A DNA stretch of 32,361 nt, taken from positions 1 to 32,361 of IMG/VR virus record IMGVR_UViG_3300032516_000105. One strand, written 5' to 3'. The translations under genes and the position numbers were made by a program. The notes beneath the pieces are model-generated. The model had not been told where the DNA came from and did not search any database. It saw only the letters and a program-made list of their open reading frames with translations. Of the stretch, positions 1 through 27,187 are shown piece after piece. The first letter of the stretch is position 1; each line of letters starts with the position of its first letter. This DNA comes from a virus.

Positions 1-3000
1 AGCCTTGATAACACACTCATGGCAACATTATCTAATGGCTTATATATTATTCCTCCTATCATTACTGCTCTTGTTCTTAACCATTCTGTGGTATTCTTAA
101 TAGGACTAACAATAAAGTTGACATTAGTAACTAATTGAATATCTTTATCGATAGTTGGGTCAAATCCGTTATATGGAATTCCGTATGGCATATATCCGGA
201 AGTTCCTGTATTTTTTTCGCCTGGAACATTTATATTATCTACACTATAAGAATGGCTACCTGAAGAATCTACAATAGTTTTTTCATTAATAGTTGACGCC
301 GTTAAGCTTGATTCTCGTTCTTTTTGAACTTTAGTAACACTATTTTTCACCATCCTATCAAAGAATGATCGATAACTAGCCATAAATGAATCTAATGGAT
401 TTGGTAATGATTGTAGTGGCATCCTTGTACCTTTGAATATAGTTTCAATTCCTGATGTTTTAATATTATGGGTTACTTCCGTAATCCAATATGACCCCTT
501 AAACAATGGTATGTTTTTTAAATAAAAGTACATTGTTGGTTGTATCATTACATTTCCCATACAAGATACCTGACATTGATATGAAGATTGTCTATATATA
601 TCAAATAATCCTATATCAACTTGAGCAGTACTGGATCCACTTTCGCTTCGTCCTAATCTGTCTAACACTATAAAAGATTCTGACGTATTTTTTATTGATG
701 TCTGATCCAATTCCACACCTTTAAAAATAGACTGATTTTGATCACCAAAACTCACCTCAAACGCAACAACTCTATTTGATTTACTAATATCGGTTTTACT
801 AAAAATACCGTCATCAATAAGAATGGGATTATTATGAGTATCCCCAACATTACATCCATCATCTGGAAATTTATTTCTTTTACTAATTTCAGACATTTCC
901 GGATGTTTCGATGTTGGCCCTATATATTGTAATATGATCTTTGGAGAAGAGTCCACATAATCAACTTCTAAGAACGACCCAAACATAATTTGAGCGACAT
1001 TTTTAGATGGTAATGATTTTCTTCCAGTTGAAGATCCATTAGCACTGTAAAAATTAACATATGCTGGTAATGCTCTAATATCAAACCCAGTATCTTGTAC
1101 TAAAAGACTAATTGCGCTAAATAAATTAATTTTTTCATTACCTTTTGCTGTTAGTCTTGTTAATTTTTCCATATCAATATAAACAGAATCTCCGATATCT
1201 CTATTCGCTTTATCCAAGAATAAAAATTCTTCCATTAATGTTCTTTGACCTATCGAATTACCTGCAGTCCATTTATCATTAAATGATTTGAACATATTAT
1301 ATAATTCTAATTTGATAATATCATCACCATATCCTCTTTTTTTATTTAATTTATCAGGTTTTGATGCGTTTAACTCTTTTTGTATTCGATATATTAATTT
1401 ATCTAAAAATAATCTTAATCTATCTTCAGGCCCGCTAACTATTGTTGAATCGATTTTGGATGATGTTGGCGATATAATCGTGTTATTTAAATATGTGATA
1501 AATTCCGATTTTGTTGGGTTTTGTCCTGTTGCCCTCAATCCAGCATATGGATAGATTAAAAATCTAAATTGTTTTATATTGTCCTCATTTAACTCAATAT
1601 TATTTAACTGAAAGAAATCTTGATAGTATCCGTCTAAATCTTCTCCCAAGTAAAGGTTGATATTATCCAAATTACCTGCAACTTGAGATGAATCAAATTC
1701 ATTTAAATCAAAATGTGTTGGATCATTACTTGTAAATCCTGTTAAAAGATAGTTATCAATTTCCCTAGGATTAGCTAATGAAATTTTTATAAGGCTATCA
1801 CTCGACAACATATTACATGTTATATCTGATAAACTAGTTGTTTGTTTTTCTTTAATTTTGGTTATAAGTCCATTAATATCTGTTGGATCTGAGTTATTTT
1901 TCGGAATCGAAACAATACTCTTTAATAAATCTTGAAATGTTGAATTTTGTACATCATATATTTTATATGCGGTTTCTTCATTAAGATTTTCACTTGCAAA
2001 ATCCAAGAACGCAGCTTCAAATACGTCTAAAATATCTGGCTTGAATGTTGCAATTAAATCAATCACTTTTTTATAATTCGTTGATAATGAATATGTACCT
2101 GTTGATCCTGTTGATTTAAAATATTCGTATGTCGATGGAAATGTATATGAAGAGTAGTCAACATAATTTGGAGTATATGTCGTTCCGATATTCCATAAGA
2201 TTCTAAAATTCTCTTGTTCCGCATCGATAAATTCAGATCCATCAATGTCGTTATATCCATTACATGGTAATAATGTGTATGTTGTTATACCTGTCGAGGC
2301 ATTAATGAAACTTGCCCACGCATTTGCCCCATGAGCAATTCTATAATTTGTATTAATTATACCATTACTTATTGCGGTAGAATAACTACTTGGCCCCGTT
2401 ACTTGGTCAAAAAAACCATAATCGTTAACTATTTTATGAAACACATTTTCATAATAAGGATGAAATCCCACATCACTATTTGTGCTTCTGTCTACTGTTA
2501 TACCTGACATTGTAGTGTATGTTCTACCAGATACGTTGTCAAAAAATAAATCTCCATCAATTCGTGTAGTCACATTTTGAATGATATCGACGCCATCATT
2601 AATATATTTTTTATATCTGTGATATATTGATCCCCATTTTATCATCAAATGATATGGAATATAATGGGTTGATCCGATTTCTCTAAAAATAGATGACATT
2701 AAAGGTTGATTACCAGATGGTAATGATGTAAAAATCATTTTTTCATCTAAATCTTTAAATGGTAGGGAATTTAAAAGTAGATATGCCGACCCCACATATT
2801 TTTCAGACGGTTGAGATTTAATAAAATCATCATATAATTGTTTATGAAAATATGGGGTGTTTAAAATATGTTTATATTCGTCGCCTATTTTTATGAGATT
2901 AGTAAATAAATTAGTAGTATATCCAGATTTAACCCACATAAATGGATCAACTGGTGATGTAATAAAATCTTCAGGAGGATTAGCTTTTAAAATTCCACTT

Positions 3001-5375
3001 AAATTTAAACTTTTGGCGTCAAAATTTGTTGTTAAATAAGATTGATATAATGTTGAATTGAACGGATATATATCTGATCTATATGATTCAGTTTTATAAT
3101 TTGATAAAAATCCCTGTAATTTTGTATATTGATCTTCATGCGTTGTTTGATTTTGAAGATTTTTTTGATATTTTTTTATAATAAAATCTTCAGATATTGC
3201 GTTTTTAATATATGGTACAGTTGGTAATTGATCTTTAAAATATGAGTATCTATCATAGGATGGCGCCATATTATAAAGTAATTGATCATAGCTTGTTATT
3301 TTTGTTTTTAACATATCTACAATATCAATATCTTCACTTATTTGAGCGCTTAAATTATCAAATTCGATACTTCCCAATTCTTGCATCACATCATTGCTGA
3401 ATGGACTAAATGAAGTAACATATTTTGCTCTTTCATATATTTCATATAAGATCGATATTTGGGATTTATCACCGTAAGGTATAATTCCTGAAATATTAGT
3501 TAACATCCCAATATCTTTTTTAGATTCTTTAATTCCTGTGGCGAAAACATAATTTATATTCTCTGGATTACCTTCTTTAGTGGTTAAATTATCAGCCTTT
3601 TTTGTTGCAATTTCATAAAAATTTTCAACAAAATCAACTTCAGGCCATAAAATTGGGTCGTCGGCCTTTAATTTACCTATTAATTCTTTACTGGCGGGAT
3701 ATGATAAAACTAAATCTTTACTACCCGCAACTTGCGTTTTTACTTCTGGCCATGGATATATAGCATCCCCAATACTATCTGTCGATACTTCAGTAAGTTT
3801 CTTTTTTCTTTCTGGACCCTGATCAAATGCTTTGGTATGGACATCTTTCATTAATCTTATATATGTTTCAGCATTAGCAAGAAGGACTCCTATAATATTT
3901 CTAATTGTTGGTTCAAAACCAATTCCCTTATCTGGTTTTTTAATTATCTCATTCATTTTTTGTTCAATGTCGGTTTCCAATTTGTTTCTTTGTTCTACAA
4001 AATCTTTTTCAACATTGTTAATATCATCAAGTAATCCATCAATATCGATACCATATGTTCCTTGATCATTTTTATAAAAATTCTTTATATTATTAAATTG
4101 ATAAAGCGATATGGGTTTAACGATAAAATTTTTATCTTTGAATATTGAATTATCTCTTCCAACCCCAAAAGTTGGGTTTTCCGCTAGTCTCTTAGCAAAA
4201 CCATATATTATGAACTCAAGTGTACCTGAGATGTCCTTACCTTCAACCCATTCTAATGTATTTTTTTTATCTCCTCTCATTCTATACCAACGTACAGGTT
4301 CGGTTGAGTTATGTTGTTTTTCATTACTTGTAAAAAAATCTGTTCGTGAACTCAGATATCTATTGCTCCATGATTGAACTGAGTTATAAAATCCTTCAAC
4401 TTGTTCTTCAAAATCCTTAACCCCCGCTAAAACCTTCGCATCTACAGTTTGTGCAAATACCTCATTTTCTAATATTTTATTTAACCTACCTGCAATAATA
4501 ATAATTTCCCTAAGTGTTTTTACTGGAAAATCTTTTGGTAGTAATCCTTTACTGATATACTCCTGATATACTGACCTTAATACTCTATATCCTTTTGTTG
4601 ATTTAGTAATCGTTACATCATAATATCCTGTTTCTTTATTATACTGGGTAGTTTCGATGTTTTCTGATAAATAAAAATACGGGGCGTTTAATACCCATTC
4701 TAATGGAATATCTGCTAGGTAAGCATATGTTGATCCTATAAATGTTGCATCGACTTCAAAATTACCATTAGCTGGATTAAACTTCGAGTTAAATTTAATC
4801 ATATGAAGTCTATATCTTATTGCTTTTCCATAATATCCTTTAACTGTTAAATAAAATATTGGCCAAGGTAAATGAAAAAAAGCGGAATATGGCGAATCCC
4901 GTGGAGAATCAAATAATGTTTTTCCTCTAACATCAATAAATTTTATTGACACACTAGGTATGAAATTGGCTCCAGCTATTTTTATTGACACATTATCAAT
5001 ACCGAAACTCTGTCCAGATGTATCATTTTGGTTAAAATTGTCACTTGAAACATCGGTATATACCTCTGTCCATTTGGTGTCAAAATCGGTATCATATGGG
5101 GTTTTTGTTTTACCATTAGGATTTGCTTTTTTCATAAAATTCAACGTCCCCCTGGCAATAGATAATAAAGTGTTTTGATTATCCTCCGCCGCTAAAATAG
5201 TACGAGGAACTAAATCAGCTTCCAAATTAACATACATTATCAGATTTTCGGGCTCAATACTTCTTGGGGCGGCTAAACCATTGGACAAAATACTATTAGG
5301 ATCGATATAAATAAGATTATTTATATCAACTTTAACTAAGATATCATTCGTGGTTTTTAAATTATTATTCCCCAT
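1..5375 (-). CDS. Giant baseplate hub-like virion protein, C-terminus outside window
   Basis: One uninterrupted minus-strand reading frame begins at an ATG (5373-5375) and leaves the window at base 1 after about 1,791 codons. Near residues 1595-1640 it reads GNVMIQPTMYFYLKNIPLFK and then a GSYWITEVTHNI segment. A 'basal point, simple low-energy strand, then a defined H-bonded fold' pattern of this kind is what I associate with the C-terminal domain of gp27/gpD-type hub proteins, where it ends in a FKGTRMP-like strand, as here. It is followed by a Ser/Lys-rich linker. The rest is Tyr/Asn-rich with no signal peptide or membrane segment. It is the last gene of the minus-strand baseplate block, after the gp53-like and 1594-residue genes. 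There is no Shine-Dalgarno sequence; the upstream bases are AT-rich. Hub assignment is inference from context and that C-terminal motif; a wedge or spike-anchoring role is possible. The reading frame itself is certain. Confidence 0.7.
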   Translation of the reverse strand, partial: MGNNNLKTTNDILVKVDINNLIYIDPNSILSNGLAAPRSIEPENLIMYVNLEADLVPRTILAAEDNQNTLLSIARGTLNFMKKANPNGKTKTPYDTDFDTKWTEVYTDVSSDNFNQNDTSGQSFGIDNVSIKIAGANFIPSVSIKFIDVRGKTLFDSPRDSPYSAFFHLPWPIFYLTVKGYYGKAIRYRLHMIKFNSKFNPANGNFEVDATFIGSTYAYLADIPLEWVLNAPYFYLSENIETTQYNKETGYYDVTITKSTKGYRVLRSVYQEYISKGLLPKDFPVKTLREIIIIAGRLNKILENEVFAQTVDAKVLAGVKDFEEQVEGFYNSVQSWSNRYLSSRTDFFTSNEKQHNSTEPVRWYRMRGDKKNTLEWVEGKDISGTLEFIIYGFAKRLAENPTFGVGRDNSIFKDKNFIVKPISLYQFNNIKNFYKNDQGTYGIDIDGLLDDINNVEKDFVEQRNKLETDIEQKMNEIIKKPDKGIGFEPTIRNIIGVLLANAETYIRLMKDVHTKAFDQGPERKKKLTEVSTDSIGDAIYPWPEVKTQVAGSKDLVLSYPASKELIGKLKADDPILWPEVDFVENFYEIATKKADNLTTKEGNPENINYVFATGIKESKKDIGMLTNISGIIPYGDKSQISILYEIYERAKYVTSFSPFSNDVMQELGSIEFDNLSAQISEDIDIVDMLKTKITSYDQLLYNMAPSYDRYSYFKDQLPTVPYIKNAISEDFIIKKYQKNLQNQTTHEDQYTKLQGFLSNYKTESYRSDIYPFNSTLYQSYLTTNFDAKSLNLSGILKANPPEDFITSPVDPFMWVKSGYTTNLFTNLIKIGDEYKHILNTPYFHKQLYDDFIKSQPSEKYVGSAYLLLNSLPFKDLDEKMIFTSLPSGNQPLMSSIFREIGSTHYIPYHLMIKWGSIYHRYKKYINDGVDIIQNVTTRIDGDLFFDNVSGRTYTTMSGITVDRSTNSDVGFHPYYENVFHKIVNDYGFFDQVTGPSSYSTAISNGIINTNYRIAHGANAWASFINASTGITTYTLLPCNGYNDIDGSEFIDAEQENFRILWNIGTTYTPNYVDYSSYTFPSTYEYFKSTGSTGTYSLSTNYKKVIDLIATFKPDILDVFEAAFLDFASENLNEETAYKIYDVQNSTFQDLLKSIVSIPKNNSDPTDINGLITKIKEKQTTSLSDITCNMLSSDSLIKISLANPREIDNYLLTGFTSNDPTHFDLNEFDSSQVAGNLDNINLYLGEDLDGYYQDFFQLNNIELNEDNIKQFRFLIYPYAGLRATGQNPTKSEFITYLNNTIISPTSSKIDSTIVSGPEDRLRLFLDKLIYRIQKELNASKPDKLNKKRGYGDDIIKLELYNMFKSFNDKWTAGNSIGQRTLMEEFLFLDKANRDIGDSVYIDMEKLTRLTAKGNEKINLFSAISLLVQDTGFDIRALPAYVNFYSANGSSTGRKSLPSKNVAQIMFGSFLEVDYVDSSPKIILQYIGPTSKHPEMSEISKRNKFPDDGCNVGDTHNNPILIDDGIFSKTDISKSNRVVAFEVSFGDQNQSIFKGVELDQTSIKNTSESFIVLDRLGRSESGSSTAQVDIGLFDIYRQSSYQCQVSCMGNVMIQPTMYFYLKNIPLFKGSYWITEVTHNIKTSGIETIFKGTRMPLQSLPNPLDSFMASYRSFFDRMVKNSVTKVQKERESSLTASTINEKTIVDSSGSHSYSVDNINVPGEKNTGTSGYMPYGIPYNGFDPTIDKDIQLVTNVNFIVSPIKNTTEWLRTRAVMIGGIIYKPLDNVAMSVLSR

Positions 5376-5910: not shown

Positions 5911-8900
5911 TTATCTCCAATAATTTAATACGCTCTTTGTTTTATTAGAACTAGTTCTATGTACGTTCTCCAACATAGTCTTTTGCCCGTCACTAAATTC
6001 ATATGTTTCATCTTGAATATTATATATTAGATTGGTACCGTTTTTTCTTGCTGGGTATTTCTTTATTCCGAAGTTCTTTAAATCAAGAGTGATTGAACTA
6101 TCATCGTATGGTATCAGGAATTTTTTTAATCTTTTTTCAATATTAACTAATGTTCTTTCAGAAAAATCCAAATTATGTTTTTGATATATTAACATTAAAT
6201 CATTAATGGACAATTTTAATAAAACTGAAAGGAAATATGATAAGTCGTTTGCGGATAGTGTTGAGTAGCGACTAAAGGTGTAACTTTCATCAAGATCTTC
6301 GGTAAATTTATCCTGATAATCTTTTATAAATTCAACAACGGAACTGTATTCATCATAAAATGTTGATGGATCAAATCCATTAAAGTTAACACCTGTATAT
6401 TCTTTCTTTTTCATATTAATTTTACCGTCATGAATTTCTCCTGTTATAAAATTTAATTTATCAAAAAGAACTATGAGTTTATTTCGTCCTTCAATAACAT
6501 TACTAAGACCGGGAGATTGTGGTAATCCATCTAATCTATCACCAATTATTTTAACCACTTCTGGTTTTATTATATCTTCCGATTTTTTCATCTGAGATGA
6601 TGTTAGATCTCGATCTAATCCAAATATTGTACTAATATTTGCAGTTGCAACCTCAGATAATATTTTACCTTTAAAATCAGATACTAATATTTCTAATTCT
6701 TGTCCTGATTTATATTCACCTAGTAGTTGAATCGATTCTGTTCCACTACCAGTCTCAACATTATAATTATTTATTATCCTATATGTTGGGGATGTCATCA
6801 TACTTAATATTCTTAAATCATATGAATTCAAATAAAAATTATAAAACTCTCTGTACTTCTTGAAATATCCCTGATTGTATATATATAGATCTTCTACTAT
6901 TGAGGTATATTCTAAGGTATTAGTACCAAGTTTACCAATATAACCTTCGGTAATTTTCATTTCTGTTGGTGGTACTTCCTGTGAATATTGATTCGTTTTT
7001 GCGGTATAATCGGCCATCAATCCTTCTAAAAATTCTTTTGTGAATTCAGCAGCATCTTTTCCAGCGATCGTGGTTTCGGTTGATGTCGACCTTGGATCAT
7101 ACATTTCTGTATTTGCATAGAAATTAGATGATAATGCGTTCTGTAATTGTTCAACTGGTTTTGCCAATCCATGACCACCAATGAAACTAACTTGTAATGT
7201 GACATTGGCAATCATTGGTTGTACACCAATTCCTTCGGGGTTTATATCCCAAAGATTTTGTTCAAAATCCACATTATAATCTCTAACTATAATTTTTGAG
7301 TGATAAAAATCACCTATTCTCATAATAAGAATTGGCGGAGGACCAAATGTTGTGTTTCTCGCATTTAAATCACTTTGATCTGATCTTTCTTTAACTGGTA
7401 ATGTGTCACCAGGTCTAATACATTGATGTAAAAATGTTAATCTAGCATTTAATCCTTCGGGCGTCATTGAGTGAAATGCTGGGTGGAAGTATCTTAATTT
7501 TTCTTTCAATGATGAGAATTGTGATGGAGAGTCTTCCTCAAGTTTCTTAAAATATGCACATTCAGACAGCGTCTTCATTATTATAACTTTCATTTGATCA
7601 ATTGGAGGAGTTTTTTGAGCTGTTGTATTTGCTGCTGAAGTTTCCGCAACTACTGCTGCACTTTTTGGTGGAGCTGTTACTTCTGGTAATTTTTCTATCG
7701 GTGTATCTTCAGATTGAGATGTATAGTTAATTTTAACTGTTGATTCTCTACAATAGAATGTATTGGGTGCCGTTATTTTTAATTGAGTAATAACAGGATC
7801 ATTAACATTACTACAATCAATCCCTCTACTATTCATACCTTGTTCTCCTGTATTTTTAGTAACTTCAATTATAAATTTTCCATCTTGATCTTCGTAACCT
7901 AATTCTTTTAAACTTATTTCAATTGGTGGCTCAACCATAGTTACAGTACTGTCAGTTATAGTTTCTTTCCATAAGATTCTGGCACTGCCGCCATCTCCGT
8001 TCTTTGAAATTTTGTTTAAAATATCTGTAATAATACTATGACTTCTTCTATATGAAAGTTTCACATTATAATTAGGTGAATGAACAGCAGATGTCGTTGA
8101 TCCGATTTGTGCTTTTATTTCTTTTACTCTTTTAAGACCAATTTCATACTTTAATCCCTCTAAATCATCATTAAATGTTATATAATTACTTTCTAAACTA
8201 TCAAATGCGTCTATTATTTTTTGATTAACACTATAAAACATCGAAGTAAAATCGGTTGGCTTTGTTGTTGTGTCTAACCCTGTTAAAATTTTATAATCTT
8301 TCTTCTGATCTGCTCCCCATTGTGTACTTCCCGTTAATATCATTAATCCTTGATTTAATATATTAAGATATGATGTGTCTCTGGTTGCAATATAACAATC
8401 ATATAATTTTTGATAGTCGTCACTTGTATATAAATTAGTACCATCACTTGCATTAGGGGTGTCATTATAGTAATATAATTCAGTGGAAAAATTTCTTGTT
8501 TCTGTCTCATTTTTAGGAACAACGGTCTCTACTGGCACTATTGGATCTAATTTTGTTTTATTGGCTTCAACAACCTTTGAATCTTTATTTTGATTCAAAT
8601 ATGATTGAATTGCTATGACATCATCTGGTGTTAATGTGGTGTATTTTCTAACTAAACTATAGAAATCAACATCAACACATCCAGCAAAAAACGCATTAAT
8701 ATAATTGTCGGCTTCTTCATCTGACATACCTTTGAAATGACTTTTCACAAGTAAATTTAATATGCTTGGATGATCCACAATAACTTTAAATGATAACTGT
8801 CCGGTTCTCGTTGTATTACTATATGTATAAACAGGTTCAGGTCTTCCTAAAAAGGCATTTTCTTCCCATTTTGCTGAGTTATTTTCACTAACCTTTAAAT

Positions 8901-10695
8901 CATATGGAGGAAACCACATAACTCTACCTCCATTTGGACCTCTTTCACAATATGGTAGATCACTATAACTAAATCCAGATCTATTTGATGACTTCCATGC
9001 TAAATTTTCTATAGAAAACATATATTTTTTAGCATAAAATCCAGCGCCGCCACTTTCAAATTTATTTGTTTTATTATTAAAACCACCCGGCGCCATATTT
9101 GTTGATCCATCAAATCCTCCATTTCCATTTGAATTTGGATATATGTTTATATTCCATGGCGTTGATAAAATACTACTTTCAAATTTTCTTGATGTTGTGG
9201 TTTTCTTCATCGTATCTGAATTATTCATATACGATCTATCTTTTGTCCACACTCGACAATATTCAACCCCACTTTCGGCTTTTGTAAAATTATTTACATA
9301 TTTTACCGCAGATCCTCTCGATATCATAACATCACCTTCTCTAAAAATTCTACTTGTCTGATCTATAACATTAGCGACATGAGAACGAGACGCTCCGCCA
9401 TCGGTAGGCATTGTTTCAAGTATTTCTTGTGTTACCCCTAAAATTGAATCTTCTCTAAATGGATAATTGGTTGATAATGTTTCATTAAATTGAGATTCTT
9501 CTGAACTATATTCATCATTATTTGTTCCTAATTTATTTTTTGATTTCGAGCTTATCCATGTTAATTTACCACCAACTCCCCCGCCTTCTCCAATATTTTT
9601 CTTCCTTGTAAATAATTCAGTCTGTACGGGATCGAACAATAAACTTAAATAATAGTTACTTCTTACAGGTCTATCATTGAAGTCGCCCATTGCGTATTTC
9701 ACATCATTCCCTCTATCATCACCAATATAACCTTTTCCTTTTGGAGCTTCAAGTCCTAAAAAATTTTTAAATCCCTCCGCAAATTGATCGACATAGTTGT
9801 ATAGTTTTGATGTGTTCTGTGACATCGCTGATGTTGTATAATCAGGAGCATATGTTGAATATGAAAGATTATCAAAGAGTGATGATTTTGGTCCGTTTCC
9901 CATATACTCAATGAATAAATCAGATGGTTTTCTTGTAGTTGTCGGTCTTCTTTGAATACCAAGTAATGAACCTAGCGCCCCTGTGGTATCTTGCCATATT
10001 TTTCCAAGTTCGCTTGTTGCTGTGGGCCTAAAATTTGTGGTAGGATTTTTCGGATTCGATAGGTAATCACCAGGAATTTCTACCCACGGGAATTCAACGC
10101 CACCAAGTTGCTGTAAAAAATCAATACCTTTACCAACTAAATGACTGGCAACTGAAATTTTGTTATTCTTCTCAATTAATGGTTCTTTTCCTGTTATGAT
10201 GTTAATTGCAGTTGATGAATTTCCCTCTAATGCGTCGATTAATCTAACTCTACCAACTGTTGCAGTATATAAATTTTGTTGTAATCTCGCAAAAAATGGG
10301 CCTTCAGGATTTTCTTTAATATTCCAAGCTGCAAATTTCATTAATTCCGATTCAGTTTCATAACTTGATGTCGACATAATACTGACAAAACTATGATATT
10401 GTCCATTTACAAAATATGGATATAGATCGAGATTTGCTTTTCTTGGAATGGTTTCAATATATTCGGTTACTGAATAGTCGTCGGGTTTAAAAACATTTGA
10501 TGTTTGTGGTTGTAATAGATCTTGTTGCCTATTGGTATCTACAGCGCCAGGATCAATATTTGACATATCACCTGTACTTTGAACGGTATAAGTGGTATTA
10601 GTAAACGATTGAGGGCCATTCGGGACTGTTAGTGTTTTACCAATAATAAAATCTCGGAATTGTTTAGTTGTATCAAAATCTAAATAACTTGGCAT
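5911..10695 (-). CDS. Large baseplate/virion structural protein (1594 aa)
   Basis: The 1,594-residue product is one of the largest in the window. Around residues 130-170 it has a VGRVRLIDALEG segment and an INIITGKEPLIEKNNKISVA segment. Around residues 585-650 it has GGRVMWFPPYDLKVSENNSA, then FLGRPEPVYTYSNTTRTGQL and VIVDHPSILN. I recognise this 'MWFPPYDL ... GRxExVYTYxNTxRTGxxSFxxxxDHPSILN' block from structural proteins of environmental myoviruses, where it is annotated only as a virion or baseplate protein. An Ala/Pro/Thr-rich linker follows at about residues 1010-1035. No enzyme motif, signal peptide or membrane helix is apparent. It lies between the tape measure and the gp53-like gene, so a baseplate role is likely, but the exact component is not known. 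A TATTTAT box lies 15 nt upstream of the ATG. Confidence 0.75.
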   Translation of the reverse strand: MPSYLDFDTTKQFRDFIIGKTLTVPNGPQSFTNTTYTVQSTGDMSNIDPGAVDTNRQQDLLQPQTSNVFKPDDYSVTEYIETIPRKANLDLYPYFVNGQYHSFVSIMSTSSYETESELMKFAAWNIKENPEGPFFARLQQNLYTATVGRVRLIDALEGNSSTAINIITGKEPLIEKNNKISVASHLVGKGIDFLQQLGGVEFPWVEIPGDYLSNPKNPTTNFRPTATSELGKIWQDTTGALGSLLGIQRRPTTTRKPSDLFIEYMGNGPKSSLFDNLSYSTYAPDYTTSAMSQNTSKLYNYVDQFAEGFKNFLGLEAPKGKGYIGDDRGNDVKYAMGDFNDRPVRSNYYLSLLFDPVQTELFTRKKNIGEGGGVGGKLTWISSKSKNKLGTNNDEYSSEESQFNETLSTNYPFREDSILGVTQEILETMPTDGGASRSHVANVIDQTSRIFREGDVMISRGSAVKYVNNFTKAESGVEYCRVWTKDRSYMNNSDTMKKTTTSRKFESSILSTPWNINIYPNSNGNGGFDGSTNMAPGGFNNKTNKFESGGAGFYAKKYMFSIENLAWKSSNRSGFSYSDLPYCERGPNGGRVMWFPPYDLKVSENNSAKWEENAFLGRPEPVYTYSNTTRTGQLSFKVIVDHPSILNLLVKSHFKGMSDEEADNYINAFFAGCVDVDFYSLVRKYTTLTPDDVIAIQSYLNQNKDSKVVEANKTKLDPIVPVETVVPKNETETRNFSTELYYYNDTPNASDGTNLYTSDDYQKLYDCYIATRDTSYLNILNQGLMILTGSTQWGADQKKDYKILTGLDTTTKPTDFTSMFYSVNQKIIDAFDSLESNYITFNDDLEGLKYEIGLKRVKEIKAQIGSTTSAVHSPNYNVKLSYRRSHSIITDILNKISKNGDGGSARILWKETITDSTVTMVEPPIEISLKELGYEDQDGKFIIEVTKNTGEQGMNSRGIDCSNVNDPVITQLKITAPNTFYCRESTVKINYTSQSEDTPIEKLPEVTAPPKSAAVVAETSAANTTAQKTPPIDQMKVIIMKTLSECAYFKKLEEDSPSQFSSLKEKLRYFHPAFHSMTPEGLNARLTFLHQCIRPGDTLPVKERSDQSDLNARNTTFGPPPILIMRIGDFYHSKIIVRDYNVDFEQNLWDINPEGIGVQPMIANVTLQVSFIGGHGLAKPVEQLQNALSSNFYANTEMYDPRSTSTETTIAGKDAAEFTKEFLEGLMADYTAKTNQYSQEVPPTEMKITEGYIGKLGTNTLEYTSIVEDLYIYNQGYFKKYREFYNFYLNSYDLRILSMMTSPTYRIINNYNVETGSGTESIQLLGEYKSGQELEILVSDFKGKILSEVATANISTIFGLDRDLTSSQMKKSEDIIKPEVVKIIGDRLDGLPQSPGLSNVIEGRNKLIVLFDKLNFITGEIHDGKINMKKKEYTGVNFNGFDPSTFYDEYSSVVEFIKDYQDKFTEDLDESYTFSRYSTLSANDLSYFLSVLLKLSINDLMLIYQKHNLDFSERTLVNIEKRLKKFLIPYDDSSITLDLKNFGIKKYPARKNGTNLIYNIQDETYEFSDGQKTMLENVHRTSSNKTKSVLNYWR

Positions 10696-13575: not shown

Positions 13576-15159
13576 TTAATGTACATTGTATTCCCATCTT
13601 ATATGTCCACAATCATAAATTCTATATATTTTTCTATCGAACATAATTTCTTTTTCTGTTTTATTCTTATCATATCCCTCTTTAACTAACACTGATTTTC
13701 TGAAATTAAATCTATGATATCTAAGTCCATTAATTACATACCAATAATTTGGAGCAGATTGTGAAATTCTTTTAAATCCCAGTGTTTCATATATATTTCC
13801 ATTAAAAAGTCTTATATCTGAATATGATATTATTTTAACTGGTGAATAGGTTTTTATAAAATAATTAAAAAGTCTGCTCGCTCCGCCAATTACATTTGTA
13901 TTAATTCGGTTACTAAATCGTGTAAGTTCCCATTCATCACTTTTCCCTCCCATTATTATCCTTCCTTTAGAAAATGTCATTACTGATATTAATTCATCAT
14001 TATAATATAATCCAATTCTTACTTTAGAATTAACATTTCCTTGAATATGATTTTCATTAAGAAACAATTTATTTGTTTTTGAATCAATTTCTTTTATAAT
14101 ACATTTTCTTCCAAAAATGGTGTTATCTGTTTTCTTTAACCTATTTTTTAAAATCGATTTAATGATTTCTTTTCTTCTTATCCATTCGTCTTCAAATATG
14201 TGAATTAATTCTATGTTTTTTTCTTGACATCCGATTGTTTTCTTTAAATGATAGTCTGATGGTAAAAATAATTCATTATGCCAATATGTTCCATCAAATT
14301 CAATGGCCAATTTATGTTCGGGTATAAAAACATCTAATTCCCTCTTACCTAGTATCAATTTGTCTGATGTCTTATGTGTAACTAATATGAATTTCAAAAA
14401 ATCACTTAATTCCTTCTCATATCCACTTCTACTTGATTGACCAATTGGATTACATACCGGACATATCTCGTAATTTCTTTTATTTCGCTCATATAATAAT
14501 TGTTTTGTTATTTCACTTTCTTTACCACATTTATCACACTTAATCGTAACCATTAATTTACCAATATGAATAAAATTAATATTTGGGTATAATGATTTAT
14601 AATTTGTGATAATTTTATTATGATAGTTATTTGAATTCGAATAATTATCAACGCCATATTTTCTACTACATGTTATTTTATATTGTTCCCAATTGTTATA
14701 TTTTTCATTATTATATCTCTCCATTCGTGTTTTTTTTGATTTTTCCACATTAACATAGTTTTCATTTCCATATCTAATTAATTTAGTTTCACGTTGTTTT
14801 TTTATAAAATCCTTATGTTGGGGATAAAACTCCACTCCATATTTTTTTTTAAAGGTTTTACTTTGCCGATTACTCATTTCTTCTTTGTTCGAATTTATAC
14901 ATTCCAATGAACAAAACTCACCATATGGTTTATCAAATCTATTTCTAAATTTAATTTCTTTACCACATGTTATACATTTTGGTCTTTCCGTTAAATTATT
15001 GTAATAGAACCATATTTTTTCCATAAAATTCAATTCTATGTTTAATTTCTCTGAATAGTTGAGAATTTCTAAATAAGTTGTGGGTTGATTTTTACTAAAC
15101 CATTTCTCCTTTGTTTTATGCCCTGATTTATTATCTATTGTAAAAAAAGAAAAATCCAT
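13576..15159 (-). CDS. Vsr-like (EDxHD-type) homing endonuclease 1
   Basis: The 527-residue product has two zinc-finger-like parts: CITCGKEIKFRNRF with a later FCSLEC near residues 62-88, and CDKCGKE with ICPVC near residues 208-238. Between them are repeats around 'KYGVE', 'RYGNE' and 'KYGVD'. A nuclease core follows near residues 273-294: RELDVFIPEHKLAIEFDG then TYWH, i.e. ExD ... ExDG-x-YWH, as in Vsr-like homing endonucleases (the I-Bth0305I/EDxHD group). It ends with a conserved domain containing NENHIQG, SYSDIR and FNFRK. Such free-standing enzymes cut alleles lacking them and spread by repair. It lies between the tail tube and the gp26-like gene, where nothing normally intervenes. It has its own promoter-like TTG-N20-TATATTTAT. 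It is a paralogue of the other two in this window; the ends align but the sequences have diverged. Confidence 0.8.
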   Translation of the reverse strand: MDFSFFTIDNKSGHKTKEKWFSKNQPTTYLEILNYSEKLNIELNFMEKIWFYYNNLTERPKCITCGKEIKFRNRFDKPYGEFCSLECINSNKEEMSNRQSKTFKKKYGVEFYPQHKDFIKKQRETKLIRYGNENYVNVEKSKKTRMERYNNEKYNNWEQYKITCSRKYGVDNYSNSNNYHNKIITNYKSLYPNINFIHIGKLMVTIKCDKCGKESEITKQLLYERNKRNYEICPVCNPIGQSSRSGYEKELSDFLKFILVTHKTSDKLILGKRELDVFIPEHKLAIEFDGTYWHNELFLPSDYHLKKTIGCQEKNIELIHIFEDEWIRRKEIIKSILKNRLKKTDNTIFGRKCIIKEIDSKTNKLFLNENHIQGNVNSKVRIGLYYNDELISVMTFSKGRIIMGGKSDEWELTRFSNRINTNVIGGASRLFNYFIKTYSPVKIISYSDIRLFNGNIYETLGFKRISQSAPNYWYVINGLRYHRFNFRKSVLVKEGYDKNKTEKEIMFDRKIYRIYDCGHIRWEYNVH

Positions 15160-15780: not shown

Positions 15781-17343
15781 ATGACTATGGAAAAAAGTAA
15801 AAAAGAATTAAAAATTTTTTTATTAGAAAATAATAAAAGTGGATATAAAACAAAAGAAAATTATATTAGTACTAATTTTCCAACATTTTTTTTAAGTTTA
15901 AAATCGTTTGTTAAAAGACATAAATTACAAAATATTCAATTTAAAGAACAATTATTTTTATTTTTGAATGATCTTAATGATATGCCTGTATGTCTAACCT
16001 GCGGTAAGAGATTAAAATTTAAAAGATCAATTAAAGAAGGATATGGTACTTATTGTTCAATTATATGTGCAAATAAATCCGAAAAACATATTAATAATAT
16101 AAAATCAACCAATATTAAAAGATATGGAGGCGTCGCTCCATGTAGTTCTTCCGATGTGATGAAAAAAATGTCGGACACAAATTTTAAAAATTATGGAGTA
16201 TATAATTTTTTTGAGAAAAAAGATATTATTCAAAAAAAAATATTTGAAAAATATGGAAATTCAATTATGACAAAAACCGATTATTATAAAAAAATAATGA
16301 AAGAAAAATATGAGAAAAAATATGAGAATGATAAAATAATAAAAAATGATAAAGAAATTATGTTCCACTGTGATATTTGTGATGAAGATTCAATTCATGA
16401 ATATAATTCATTTAACTATAGACAAAGAAATAATATTTCACTTTGTAAAATATGCGTCCCTCCGTATCAATCTATGATTGAAGAAGAACTTGAAAATTTC
16501 TTGGTTGATAATGGATATGATTTTAAAAAACATGACAGAATTACAATTATGCCCAAGGAAATTGACTTTTTTATAAAAGATAAAAAAATTGGAATAGAGA
16601 TAAATGGACTATATTACCATAGTGAAAAATTTATATTGGATAAAAATTATCATAGAAATAAGTGGATATCTTCAGAAAAAGAAGGAATTCATTTATTTCA
16701 AATATGGGAAGATGAATGGAAATTCAAAAAAGAAATTGTTAAAAATATAATTAAAAACAGAATATCCGGAACTAATGAAAAAATATGGGGAAGAAAATGT
16801 GAAATAAAATTAATTGATAATGACGTTTATAAATCTTTTATTGAAAATCATCACATACAAGGATATGCTCCATCAAAAATTAAGCTTGGATTATTTTTTA
16901 AAAATGAACTGATACAAATAATGTCATTTTCAGGTAATAGAAAATCGATGGGCAGTATAAAAAAAGAAGGAGAATATGAAATGATAAGGTTATGTACAAA
17001 ATCAGGGATAAATGTAGTGGGTGGATCTGAAAAATTACTAACCTGTTTTGAGAAGATATTTAAACCTCTTAAAATCACTAGCTATTGTGATGTTCGATAT
17101 TTTACAGGAAAAACATACCATAAAATGGGATTTGAACTTAAAGAAATAACAAAGCCTAATTATTTTTATCTTAAACCTAATGAAATTAAAAGATATCAAC
17201 GATTTAACTTCAGGAAAGATAAACTTGTTAAAATGGGATTTTCAAAATTAAAAACAGAACATGAAATAACAAAAGAATTAGGATATCTAAGATTATGGGA
17301 TTGTGGAAATAAAAAATTTATTAAAATTTACAAAAAAGTTTGA
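15781..17343 (+). CDS. Vsr-like (EDxHD-type) homing endonuclease 2
   Basis: The 520-residue product shares the plan of its paralogues: CLTCGKRLKFKRS with CSIIC (about residues 71-94), Tyr/Gly-containing repeats ('RYGGV', 'NYGVY', 'KYGNS'), a second CDIC/CKIC pair (about residues 198-231), then a nuclease core. The core reads E260-x-D262 and E273-x-N275-G276 with H280 (EIDFFIKDKKIGIEING, then LYYH), so the Asp seen in HEG 1 is Asn here. The C-terminal domain carries NHHIQG, YCDVRYF and FNFRKDK. It reads on plus against the tail cluster, starting 32 bp from the tube start. It is very A-rich and Lys-rich. Role by family: free-standing homing nuclease. Alternative: a mobile nuclease that no longer homes. 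Confidence 0.8.
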   Translation: MTMEKSKKELKIFLLENNKSGYKTKENYISTNFPTFFLSLKSFVKRHKLQNIQFKEQLFLFLNDLNDMPVCLTCGKRLKFKRSIKEGYGTYCSIICANKSEKHINNIKSTNIKRYGGVAPCSSSDVMKKMSDTNFKNYGVYNFFEKKDIIQKKIFEKYGNSIMTKTDYYKKIMKEKYEKKYENDKIIKNDKEIMFHCDICDEDSIHEYNSFNYRQRNNISLCKICVPPYQSMIEEELENFLVDNGYDFKKHDRITIMPKEIDFFIKDKKIGIEINGLYYHSEKFILDKNYHRNKWISSEKEGIHLFQIWEDEWKFKKEIVKNIIKNRISGTNEKIWGRKCEIKLIDNDVYKSFIENHHIQGYAPSKIKLGLFFKNELIQIMSFSGNRKSMGSIKKEGEYEMIRLCTKSGINVVGGSEKLLTCFEKIFKPLKITSYCDVRYFTGKTYHKMGFELKEITKPNYFYLKPNEIKRYQRFNFRKDKLVKMGFSKLKTEHEITKELGYLRLWDCGNKKFIKIYKKV

Positions 17344-17684: not shown

Positions 17685-19205
17685 TTATAACATCATTTCA
17701 AACTTCATAGATCCGCAATCCCATATTCTATCAAATCCTTTTTCTTGCATTATTTCCCATTCTGTTTTATCAGGTGAAAATCCTTCTTTTATGAGAACAT
17801 CTTTTCTAAATGTAAATCTATGAAATCTATGAAGAAAATCTTTTGTATTTACATACCAGTAATTAGGTGGAGTCTGGTGAATAAATTTAAATCCGTTCTT
17901 ATAGTAAATAGTGTCTTCAGGAATGATTCCAGACCACCTGGAATCAGCATACGTAATAATCTTAGATGGATTATATCCTTTAATAAAATATTTCAACAGA
18001 CGTGAAAATCCCCCGACAATATTTGTATTTATTTTACCAGCAAATCTCAGGAGTTCATACTCATCAGTTATTGATGTATTACCCAAAGAGTTTCTTTTCT
18101 TCCCAAACGTTATAACAGTAATTAATTTGTCATTTAGATATAATCCCAGTCTAACTTTATCAACTGAATCTCCCTGTAAATGATTTTTTTCTAAGAATAT
18201 CTTTGAATCTGTTTTAGATATTTCTTTTATTACACATTTTCGGGCAAAAATTTTATTTTCGGTTATACCAAGGATGTTTTTAATTCGGGAAAAAACAATT
18301 TCTTTTTTTAATAATAATTCATCTTCAAAAATTTGTAATAATTTAATTTTCACATTTGTGGCAATCATTAGTTTTTCAAAATGATAAGTTTTGTCTTTCT
18401 CTCCATATATTTCAGAGTGATGATAATTTCCATTTAATTCTATTCCTAAATTATAGTCAGTTAAAAATAAATCAATTTCTTTTCCATTTAACAATGTTCG
18501 ATTATTATCTAAATGTTTTATTCCTAGTTCATTTATAAAATCTCGAAAAATTTCTTCCAATTTAGAGTTTTTCGTTATTGGAAAGCATTTTCTACAAATT
18601 GGTATTTTACCGCTACCCAATAATGTGCTTGAAAAAACATTATCACATTTTAAACATTTAAAATTATATGGACGAGAAGTATTTCCATCTTTATTATTTA
18701 TATAATCATCAAGTAAATCTAAATTATAACTCTTTAGTTTTGGGATTAAACAAAGTAAATGATTCTCTCGAAAAGTGGTTTTTAATTTTTCAACAAAAGG
18801 AGGAAAGTACATAGGGTGAGAAACGCCATATTTTTCTTTAAAATTTTTTCTACATTTTTTTTGAAATTCATCTAACTCAAATAAACTTTTAACCCCATAT
18901 TTTTCAATTATTACCTTTTTCGAGTTTTTTATTCTTTTGTCTTTATTTTCTTGAATTAGATTCCATTTTAATCTGCATTCATCAGAGCATAATGTTCGTT
19001 CATGTTTTTTTCTTTCTGTAAATTCACTTCCACATTGTAAACATATCCTTTGTTCTCTTACAGAAGGGTCTTTTTTGTTACCTAATAAATTGTTTTTTCT
19101 AGCGTATTCAAAATAACATGTTCTATTACAAAATTTTTTATCTCGATGTTTAAAATTAGTAGTAAACATTTTGTTACAATTTTCACATTTTAATTCTATT
19201 TTCAT
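17685..19205 (-). CDS. Vsr-like (EDxHD-type) homing endonuclease 3
   Basis: I choose the ATG at 19203-19205 (MKIELKCENC, 506 residues). A longer frame reaches 19283, but its first 26 residues are a hydrophobic stretch encoded by the promoter and terminator of the sheath gene. The product has three Cys-rich parts: CENCNKMF with FCNRTC, CLQCGSEF with LCSDEC, and CLKCDNVF with ICRKC, then the nuclease core KEIDLFLTDYNLGIELNG followed by NYHH (again Asn in the ExN-G site), and the C-terminal domain with EKNHLQG, TYADSRW and FTFRKD. It sits immediately behind the sheath terminator, where the tube gene would be expected, and runs in the same direction as the tail genes. It has one more zinc-finger-like pair at the N-terminus than its paralogues. 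Family role: homing endonuclease. Confidence 0.8.
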   Translation of the reverse strand: MKIELKCENCNKMFTTNFKHRDKKFCNRTCYFEYARKNNLLGNKKDPSVREQRICLQCGSEFTERKKHERTLCSDECRLKWNLIQENKDKRIKNSKKVIIEKYGVKSLFELDEFQKKCRKNFKEKYGVSHPMYFPPFVEKLKTTFRENHLLCLIPKLKSYNLDLLDDYINNKDGNTSRPYNFKCLKCDNVFSSTLLGSGKIPICRKCFPITKNSKLEEIFRDFINELGIKHLDNNRTLLNGKEIDLFLTDYNLGIELNGNYHHSEIYGEKDKTYHFEKLMIATNVKIKLLQIFEDELLLKKEIVFSRIKNILGITENKIFARKCVIKEISKTDSKIFLEKNHLQGDSVDKVRLGLYLNDKLITVITFGKKRNSLGNTSITDEYELLRFAGKINTNIVGGFSRLLKYFIKGYNPSKIITYADSRWSGIIPEDTIYYKNGFKFIHQTPPNYWYVNTKDFLHRFHRFTFRKDVLIKEGFSPDKTEWEIMQEKGFDRIWDCGSMKFEMML

Positions 19206-19248
19206 AAGTGGTAAAATTTTAATATTATTAACAAGAACCTCTCTTCTT

Positions 19249-19280
19249 ATAAATATACATAAAATAAAAATAATAAACAA
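19249..19280 (-). promoter_or_regulatory. Promoter for homing endonuclease 3 (TTG-N20-TATATTTAT)
   Basis: On minus, TTG at 19278-19280 is followed after 20 nt by TATATTTAT (19249-19257). It begins directly after the T-run of the sheath terminator, so the endonuclease has its own start of transcription, 43 nt before the chosen ATG. Confidence 0.6.
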
Positions 19281-19281
19281 C

Positions 19282-19306
19282 AAAAAACCCCGAAAATTCG
19301 GGGTTT
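19282..19306 (-). terminator. Rho-independent terminator of the sheath gene
   Basis: Read on minus, AAACCCCGAA and TTCGGGGTTT (19285-19306) form a ten-bp stem with a TT loop, followed by a run of six T at 19282-19287, part of it in the stem. It lies 26 bp after the sheath stop codon and is the only clear GC-rich terminator I find in the window. Confidence 0.85.
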
Positions 19307-24280: not shown

Positions 24281-27187
24281 ATGGAGACAAAGATTCCCGA
24301 AATAGAGGCAAGAAACATTCTATCAACATATGAAGGAGCTAACAATCAGTTGATAGAATGGAGAACCAGGTTTTTAAACAATAAGAGCTTCAATTTAACA
24401 CGCCCACAAGCTGATTATGTGTTAAAATACAATAAGATAACCCCTAAAGTTGCTAGAAAATATATTTATATTACCGTATCATTTGGGCAAAAATTAAAAG
24501 AAGAAAAATTATTTACAAAAACCATTGAAAAAATATGGTGTGAGAAATTATTATGTGAATCAGATAAGGCTTTTCACATATGGGGTAAATATTTTGATAC
24601 CGAACAAAATCATTCTATTTGGTTACCAAAAGGAGCGATTATACCATCGGAAAAGAAATTAAATCGGGTCATAGATTATTCAAAATATAATGTCCGCCCA
24701 CCAATGGAACATCAAAAAGTGGCAATTGAAAAACTTTTAGCTAATGATAGATTTATTTTAGCAGATGAAATGGGAGGTGGTAAAGGATTGGAAATCAATA
24801 CATTACTATACTCACCAAAAGGAAAAATTAAAATTGGTGATTTAAAAATAGGTGACGAAATAATTGGATTAAATGGTAAAAAATGTAAGGTTAATGGTGT
24901 GTTTTTTCAAGGCGAAATGGATCTTTACAGAATAACATTTAATGACGGATATTCAATATTAACAGATAAAAATCATTTGTTTAAACTATCTTCACGTGGT
25001 TTTGGAAAAAATAATAAAAGCGGAAGATCAGATAGAAAAATAATATTAAGTGTTGATCAAATGATGGATAAAGATTTAAAATTAAAACAAAAAGGATGGG
25101 GATGGAATGAAAAAAGGTCATATGTCTATTCAACATATTATAAAGAAACAAATGGAAACTTGAAATGGCAAATACCAATAGTAAAACCGATAGAGTTCGA
25201 TAATAATGACATCTTACCAATAGATCCATATTTTTTAGGATTAAGTCTTGGAGATGGGTATTTTAGAAAAAAAACTATTCAATTCACATGTCATAAAGAC
25301 GATTATGATGAACTTTTTTATAATTTTAATTTAATTGAAACTAAAACGATAATAAAAAGGCCAAATGTGAGATTTGGATATACTAATATTGGAAATTTAT
25401 TATATGAATTAAATCTTGAAAACACAAGATCCCACACTAAATTCATACCGAACATATATAAATATTCATCAATTGAAAATAGACTTTTGATACTACAAGG
25501 ATTAATGGACACGGATGGTTGTTGTGCATTGAGTGAAAATAATAATTTTAAAGCAACAGAATATACAACAGTATCAGAACAATTATGCGATGATGTTATT
25601 GAAATTGTGCATTCATTAGGTGGAATTGCAAGAAAACATTCAAGAATATCTTTTTATAAAAAAAATGGTATTAGAGTGAAATGTAGAATGACATATTATG
25701 TAAATATTAAGTTGAGCAATGGAATGAACCCTTTTAAATTAAAACGAAAAGCCGAAAGATATAATGATCCACAAAAATATAAAGTTGGTAGATATATTAA
25801 AAATATTGAATTTGAAAGAAAAGGTGAATCAGTATGTATATCCGTGGATTCTCCAGATAAATTATATGTTGCGGATCATGCAATAGTTACACATAACACA
25901 ACATCTTCAATAATTGCGTCATTAGAAAGTGGAGCAAAAAAAATTCTTATTGTGTGTCCAGCGTCCCTTAAAATAAATTGGCAAAAAGAAATAAAAATAT
26001 ATACCGATAGAAAAACATTAATTGTGGAAGGTCGTAAATGGGGATCAACCTTTGATTTTTATATAATAAATTATGATATATTAAAAAATTATCATACAAC
26101 TGAAAAAAGTGAAGATAGTGATGATTATAAATTAATTATAAATGAAGGATTTGATGTAGCAATTATAGATGAGGCACATTTTTTGAGCAACGCCACAAGT
26201 AACAGGTCCAAACTATTAAACGACATTCTCGAAAAAATACCAAAAGTTTGGTTATTAACTGGAACGCCGATGACTAATAGGCCGATTAACTATTTTAATC
26301 TATTAAAAATTGTTCATTCCCCAGTTGCATCAAATTGGCAACACTATGTTAAAAGGTATTGTAAAGGATTTAGATTCAAAGCTAACGGTAGAACAATATG
26401 GAATACAAGTGGTCATAGTAATTTGGATGAATTAAGAGAAATGACAAAAAATATTGTACTACGAAGAATGAAGTCAGATATTCTTGATTTACCTGAAAAA
26501 ATCATAACCCCAATATTCTTAGAATTGAAAAGCACATATTACAATGAAGAACTTGAGGAATTCATGAGAATTACAGAAGAAAATAAACATCGAACAACAC
26601 TTAACATTAATACTCAGGAAGAAGAACCTGATAGAGAGAATCTTATTGCCGTTTTAGGTCGTCTTATGAAAGTTAGACAGGTTCTTGCCTTTGAAAAAAT
26701 ACCATATACTTGTGAATTAATCGATAAAGCCCTTGATCAGGATAAAAAAATTCTTGTCTTTACGAATTTCACAATGACATTAGATATGCTACACGAAAAA
26801 TATAAGAAAAATTCTGTGGTTTTAGATGGTAGAATGACCGCAAATCAAAAAGAAGCGAGCAAAGAGAAATTTCAGAATGATCCGAAGATAAAAGTGTTCA
26901 TTTTGAATATTATTGCCGGTGGCGTTGGCCATAATTTAACAGCCGCCGAAGTTGTTATTATGAACGATTTATCATTTGTTCCTGCTCATCATGCACAAAG
27001 TGAGGACAGAGCCCATAGACCAAATCAGAAAAATAGTGTTACAATATATTATCCAATATTCGAAAACACAATTGAACAAATTGTTTATAACATATTACAA
27101 AGAAAAAAGAATATCATCGACCAGGTAATGGGTGATGGTGAATATTCAGAATCTTTTGCTAAAGAGCTTATGAAGGCACTGCTTTAA
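24281..27187 (+). CDS. SNF2-family (SF2) DNA helicase with an intein in the Walker A motif
   Basis: The frame encodes 968 residues, of which 169-539 form an intein; the spliced helicase would have 597. Extein motifs: DEMGGGK (162-168), completed by T540 after splicing to give the nucleotide-binding GGGKTT; IIDEAH (630-633 for DEAH); LTGTPM (660-664); NIIAGGVGHNL near residue 880; and QSEDRAHRPNQ (906-916), which is the arginine-finger motif of SNF2/SMARCAL1-like translocases. These remodel or reanneal DNA and are used by phages for replication fork and recombination work. The gene starts 57 bp from the divergent neck gene. The intein splits the Walker A between Lys and Thr, so the enzyme cannot work until splicing occurs. 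No Shine-Dalgarno sequence. It is the analogue of T4 UvsW in role only by inference. Confidence 0.9.
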   Translation: METKIPEIEARNILSTYEGANNQLIEWRTRFLNNKSFNLTRPQADYVLKYNKITPKVARKYIYITVSFGQKLKEEKLFTKTIEKIWCEKLLCESDKAFHIWGKYFDTEQNHSIWLPKGAIIPSEKKLNRVIDYSKYNVRPPMEHQKVAIEKLLANDRFILADEMGGGKGLEINTLLYSPKGKIKIGDLKIGDEIIGLNGKKCKVNGVFFQGEMDLYRITFNDGYSILTDKNHLFKLSSRGFGKNNKSGRSDRKIILSVDQMMDKDLKLKQKGWGWNEKRSYVYSTYYKETNGNLKWQIPIVKPIEFDNNDILPIDPYFLGLSLGDGYFRKKTIQFTCHKDDYDELFYNFNLIETKTIIKRPNVRFGYTNIGNLLYELNLENTRSHTKFIPNIYKYSSIENRLLILQGLMDTDGCCALSENNNFKATEYTTVSEQLCDDVIEIVHSLGGIARKHSRISFYKKNGIRVKCRMTYYVNIKLSNGMNPFKLKRKAERYNDPQKYKVGRYIKNIEFERKGESVCISVDSPDKLYVADHAIVTHNTTSSIIASLESGAKKILIVCPASLKINWQKEIKIYTDRKTLIVEGRKWGSTFDFYIINYDILKNYHTTEKSEDSDDYKLIINEGFDVAIIDEAHFLSNATSNRSKLLNDILEKIPKVWLLTGTPMTNRPINYFNLLKIVHSPVASNWQHYVKRYCKGFRFKANGRTIWNTSGHSNLDELREMTKNIVLRRMKSDILDLPEKIITPIFLELKSTYYNEELEEFMRITEENKHRTTLNINTQEEEPDRENLIAVLGRLMKVRQVLAFEKIPYTCELIDKALDQDKKILVFTNFTMTLDMLHEKYKKNSVVLDGRMTANQKEASKEKFQNDPKIKVFILNIIAGGVGHNLTAAEVVIMNDLSFVPAHHAQSEDRAHRPNQKNSVTIYYPIFENTIEQIVYNILQRKKNIIDQVMGDGEYSESFAKELMKALL
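24785..25897 (+). mobile_element. Intein with LAGLIDADG homing endonuclease (371 aa)
   Basis: Residues 169-539 of the helicase frame. N-terminal splice block GLEINTLLYSPKGKIKIGDL starts with Gly, not the usual Cys, Ser or Ala. Block B is T228...H232 followed by L-F (TDKNHLF). The two endonuclease motifs are LGLSLGDGY (319-327) and LQGLMDTDG (405-413), with D325 and D412 as likely metal-binding Asp. The C-terminal block is C519-ISVDSP...YVADHAIVTHN539 and the next extein residue is Thr540. Missing nucleophile at position 1, Cys in block F and Thr at +1 match class 3 inteins, which use the block F Cys to start splicing; the block B Trp typical of that class is Phe234 here. The endonuclease motifs look intact, so homing may be active. 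Confidence 0.85.

Follow-up and report, generated by a model that had tools for sequence, protein, structure and literature searches.

Class 3 inteins are recognised by a triplet (WCT) consisting of Trp at block B position 12 (B:12 or N3:12), Cys at block F position 4 (F:4 or C2:4) and Thr at block G position 5 (G:5 or C1:5) (PMC5222942, PMC3196547), and the same placement of the triplet Thr is given in PMC7891396. Replacement of the Trp by Ala blocks splicing in three class 3 inteins, Phe not being among the substitutions tested (PMC5222942). The operative definition of PMC7891396 asks for the absence of an N-terminal Cys and the presence of a Cys at C2:4; it does not require the Trp and includes inteins with an MCT triplet. 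Among 1701 class 3 inteins, 6.1% have another residue than Trp at N3:12. In the AceL NrdHF intein this residue is Met; the intein splices by the class 3 route, and its splicing was abolished by A1G and by aromatic residues in place of the Met (PMC7891396). A decayed class 3 intein, Arsp-FB24 Arth_1007, is also known (PMC3196547). The position between Lys and Thr of the P-loop is a classic insertion site of inteins (PMC5050341), and a Ser of M. smegmatis DnaBi1 has been described with a dual role, namely in splicing and in nucleotide/Mg binding by the mature protein (PMC6195587).

Our analysis revealed an intein at such a site in a virus record of 32,361 bases, the whole of which is referred to here as the window. 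Its genes include those for tail sheath, tail tube, baseplate and a family B DNA polymerase, and on this gene content the window is taken to be part of a contractile-tailed phage. Three related genes of 520-532 aa with hits to phrog_3339 (annotated as homing endonuclease) lie amid the tail genes (13576-15159, minus strand; 15781-17343, plus strand; 17685-19283, minus strand), and two very large ORFs (3-5375, at least 1791 aa, and 5911-10695, 1594 aa; both minus strand), neither of which matches any PHROG, adjoin the baseplate genes. The intein is hosted by a SNF2-type phage helicase encoded by an ORF of 968 aa on the plus strand (24281-27187; all features below are on this strand), with Pfam matches to SNF2-rel_dom (residues 158-778) and Helicase_C and a PHROG match to phrog_62, DNA helicase (E 7e-94). 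The ORF is open throughout and contains a stop-free insert of 371 residues (24785-25897) between the Lys and the Thr of the Walker A motif. The N-extein (24281-24784, 168 aa) ends in ADEMGGGK, that is with Walker A through its Lys, and has the same N-terminus as in two intein-free relatives (L028 and L029). The C-extein (25898-27187, 429 aa) starts with Thr+1, which is the Walker A Thr, and includes the Helicase_C and phrog_62 matches.

The boundaries of the insert were determined by a search with the C-extein, for which 80 relatives were fetched. No fewer and no more than 71 were intein-free with GK/TT exactly at the insertion point (marked here by the slash), seven carried an intein at the same point, and two were intein-free with GLMK/SST and GLMK/TGS. 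Since the 71 empty GK/TT sites fix both ends, the insert comprises exactly Gly1 to Asn371. Block A of the window intein and 18 relatives (19 inteins) could moreover be aligned without gaps from residue 1, and the empty sites and this alignment together rule out a start of the intein at a Cys, Ser or Ala. An earlier note, made from the sequence of the window, had described a complete 371-residue intein with two LAGLIDADG motifs that splits a helicase Walker A between Lys and Thr, with Gly1, a block F Cys (C519), a terminal Asn539 and Thr540 at +1. All of this was confirmed; in intein numbering the four residues are Gly1, Cys351, Asn371 and +1. The insert consists of a Hint splicing domain and a LAGLIDADG endonuclease, whose region has Pfam matches to LAGLIDADG_3 and Hom_end and contains both motifs with their acidic residues: PYFLGLSLGDG (25226-25258; core LGLSLGDG) with Asp157, in which G156 and G158 are invariant and D157 is at least 90% conserved among 81 sequences, and ILQGLMDTDG (25490-25519; core LQGLMDTDG; Pfam PF14528) with Asp242 and Asp244. 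The profile TIGR01445 (intein_Nterm) matched the intein below cut-off only.

With the endonuclease left out, the intein aligned end-to-end, through the final THN, with the class 3 DnaB1 inteins of M. chimaera (6rix, E 5.5e-8; MchDnaB1, reference residue numbering in PMC7664689) and M. smegmatis (6bs8), with every catalytic position in register. His64 (B:10 or N3:10; 24974-24976) falls on His65 of 6rix, Phe66 (B:12; 24980-24982) on Trp67, Cys351 (F:4; 25835-25837) on Cys124 and Asn371 on Asn145. Gly1 (N1:1; 24785-24787) provides no Cys, Ser or Thr nucleophile at position 1, the Cys at F:4 is in place, the Thr at G:5 is Thr369 in the terminal VTHN (Thr369-His370-Asn371, G:5 to G:7; 25889-25897), and the block B His, a Thr at +1 and the terminal Asn complete the class 3 set. 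The structural Trp that gives the strict WCT signature is absent from B:12, where Phe66 is found, which agrees with the earlier assignment of this residue (F234 in the ORF) to the Trp position. The intein had also been fitted to the WCT triplet with Thr540 as its T. A triplet Thr is indeed present, but Thr540 is ruled out by the published definition (PMC5222942, PMC7891396), which points to Thr537 of the ORF, i.e. Thr369; the class is unchanged and the triplet reads FCT, not WCT. Since the operative definition does not need the Trp, the window intein was filed as class 3 and not as a WCT intein.

To place these residues among relatives, three viral-contig scans with the intein and a helicase scan were combined into a family of 143 distinct complete inteins, counting that of the window. 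The block F Cys was not part of the scan patterns, and the frequencies given here apply to a set picked by similarity to the window intein, not to inteins at large. A scan of genomes found no more than 4 distant relatives, the close family being found in viral contigs alone. His at N3:10, Cys at C2:4, Thr at C1:5 and Asn at C1:7 are invariant (143/143), and the penultimate His at C1:6 is kept in 142. Position N3:12 is occupied by Trp in 130 members, Phe in 12 and His in one, and the +1 residue is Thr in 135, Ser in 7 and Cys in one. At residue 1, 11 different amino acids occur (A 62, G 21, F 17, C 10, S 7, M 6, L 5, E 5, P 4, D 3, V 3), and the earlier view that a first residue other than Cys, Ser or Ala is atypical does not hold here. 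Judged from these sequences, Gly1 and Phe for Trp represent normal variation within this intein family, and since Gly1 occurs naturally in 21 inteins and Phe in 12, the harm of both changes in AceL NrdHF would seem to be intein-dependent. The ten members with Cys1 and the seven with Ser1 all keep the block F Cys. The class 3 Cys and Thr are both present in each of the ten Cys1 members, namely L242, L264, L258, L260, L254, L111, L261, L120, L216 and L124, of which L216 is FCT.

Class 1 inteins have Cys or Ser at position 1, where the window intein has Gly, and class 2 inteins combine a non-nucleophilic residue 1 and direct +1 attack with the lack of the class 3 block F Cys, which is present here and invariant. 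A class 2-like or other route, by which Thr+1 would attack the N-terminal junction directly as in KlbA and Cys351 would be structural, would accommodate a position 1 without nucleophile and the nucleophile at +1. We hold such a route to be very improbable, given that the Cys at C2:4 is found in every member, that the Thr at C1:5, typical of class 3, is likewise invariant and that Cys351 aligns on the nucleophile Cys124 of MchDnaB1. The earlier note had left the choice between a class 3 variant with an altered triplet and a different mechanism: the former is borne out by the alignment to solved class 3 inteins, the 143 members and the predicted structure, and the latter is unnecessary, since the window intein has the Cys, His, Thr and Asn of the class 3 active site and none of the four varies in the family. 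No new mechanism is needed. We propose with high confidence that the insert is a mobile intein of class 3 in which FCT replaces the WCT triplet, predicted to splice via the block F Cys, and that it is very probably functional.

The history of the variable positions was analysed on a tree of the same-site inteins and an outgroup, with N1:1 and N3:12 masked; the outgroup did not fall on one side of a branch, and the change counts are independent of the root. On this tree the distribution of Phe and Trp at N3:12 needs 4 changes and residue 1 at least 25. That the block F Cys stays constant where residue 1 undergoes 25 or more changes is a prediction of the class 3 mechanism, and the conserved putative nucleophile of these sequences is the block F Cys and not residue 1. 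The Phe inteins are nested among same-site WCT inteins, and the window intein clusters with the FCT, Gly1 inteins L002, L189, L090 and L095, with a support of 100 in the same-site tree and 97 when only the splicing domain was used. In this second tree, Phe needs 3 changes by parsimony, 2 of them forced by branches with good support. Across the four Phe groups, several other residues go along with Phe. These were considered as compensating residues for the change from Trp to Phe, an explanation that we did not retain: the Phe groups are nearer each other in the splicing-domain tree (2 forced or 3 by parsimony vs 4), and therefore shared descent or recombination explains the tracking residues as well as compensation does. 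It is a tentative and rather unlikely proposal that FCT might be a repeatedly evolved, compensated class 3 subtype, in which Phe would have arisen 2 to 4 times at one helicase site together with Glu344, Lys62, Arg49, Gly347 and others, and in which position 1 would be unconstrained and could hold even a Cys in addition to that of block F, either of which might then serve as nucleophile in individual inteins.

An AlphaFold2 model of the intein, calculated from an 81-sequence alignment, reached a pLDDT of 93.8 and a pTM of 0.92. The whole model matched PI-SceI with Z about 25 over about 320 residues (rmsd 3.1-3.9). Among Hint-only entries the top matches, to the Hint part of the model, were the class 3 entries 6bs8 (Z 19.6, 125 residues, rmsd 1.7), 6riy (Z 19.2) and 6rix (Z 19.1), all at rmsd 1.7-2.0, followed by Prp8 inteins and by gp41-1 at Z 17.9. 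The model firmly supports a Hint fold and weakly supports class 3; as the gap between class 3 and gp41-1 is below 2 Z units, the class rests on the residues. The intein is also about as close to gp41-1 in sequence (6qaz, E 3e-7) and shares its Phe at the same position and its THN end, which might suggest that the window intein is a gp41-1-like member of class 1 without its former Cys1. However, gp41-1 has Cys1 and an Asp at C2:4, a position that is always Cys in the window family, residue 1 of this family varies freely, and the window intein stands amid same-site WCT inteins, all of which makes such an origin exceedingly improbable compared with class 3.

In comparison with L002 (82% identical, FCT, Gly1), the only pair for which dS was not near saturation, dN/dS by a simple counting method was 0.16 for the splicing domain and 0.21 for the endonuclease, and both parts appear to be under purifying selection. 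These values and the uninterrupted ORF argue against a splicing-dead, decayed intein that has left the helicase broken, as in the case of Arth_1007. The changed Trp, Gly1 and the GGGK Walker A of the N-extein, which is absent from other same-site inteins, could be read as signs of such decay, but the His and Cys that were both lost in Arth_1007 are kept in the window intein, and Phe is retained in two groups, both well supported and each made up of five distinct inteins. We give decay very little credence and continue with the reading of a functional class 3 intein.

By analogy with class 3 biochemistry, splicing would begin with an attack of Cys351, aided by His64, on the Lys168-Gly1 bond, by which the N-extein would be held as a thioester. 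The acyl group would then move from Cys351 to Thr+1, cyclisation of Asn371 would free the intein, and an acyl shift would form the Lys-Thr peptide bond and restore the Walker A sequence GGGKT. Phe66 would take the place of the Trp in the packing of the hydrophobic core. Thr+1 would, as described for the Ser of DnaBi1, act first as a splicing residue and then in nucleotide/Mg binding by the mature helicase. It is a reasonable inference that the helicase depends on splicing, and the unspliced protein is likely to lack ATPase activity. The endonuclease would spread the intein to intein-free alleles by cleaving at the K/T codons.

The closest intein-free relatives of the helicase are L028 and L029 (92% and 85% extein identity), and they read GLMK/SST and GLMK/TGS (base 4001) vs GK/TT in the 71 others. 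Against L028 the site codons (24770-24784 plus 25898-25909 in the window), normally the most conserved motif of the gene, are its most divergent DNA stretch (permutation P 5e-5), and against L029 the excess of divergence at the site codons was not significant (P 0.07). These two cases, and two only, are perhaps alleles that escape the homing endonuclease. Several related helicases (L112, L241, L223, L224, L231, L228, L226, L251, L247 and L120) have another intein-like insert in addition to the P-loop intein. Its first residue is Cys, as in class 1, and it follows either AEDR/SEDR, towards helicase motif VI, or VILDE, in Walker B.

The inteins at this one site form a natural series, with a Trp/Phe swap, a drifting residue 1 and fixed Cys, His, Thr and Asn, which is comparative evidence on the residues that the class 3 mechanism really needs. 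Real inteins will escape searches that insist on the strict WCT triplet or on Cys, Ser or Ala as the first residue. The family further offers candidates for Phe at B:12 and for Gly1, both of which were harmful in engineered AceL NrdHF (PMC7891396).

Among the known systems, the DnaB1 inteins of M. smegmatis and M. chimaera (6bs8, 6rix) share with the window intein the Hint fold (Z 19-20, rmsd at most 2 Å), the positions of His, block F Cys, Thr and Asn and a P-loop insertion between GK and S/T, and differ in their DnaB host, as mini-inteins without endonuclease, and in Trp at B:12, Ala1 and Ser+1. The AceL NrdHF intein (6zgq) likewise has the class 3 Cys and Thr with a residue other than Trp at B:12; however, it is naturally split, contains no endonuclease, has Met and not Phe, lacks His at C2:13 and C1:6 and is inactivated by A1G (PMC7891396). 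The class 1 intein gp41-1 (6qaz) is similar in Hint sequence and fold, in Phe at B:12 and in its THN end, and differs by Cys1, Asp at C2:4 and the lack of an endonuclease. The same-site WCT inteins of IMG/VR contigs (L003, L005, L007, L193 and others) share gene, K/T site and architecture at 57-63% identity, whereas they have Trp at B:12 and a variable residue 1. The same-site FCT inteins (L002, L189, L090, L009 and others) have gene, site and Phe at B:12 in common with the window intein, and in L002, L189 and L090 also Gly1, and differ from it by sequence divergence only (18-44%).
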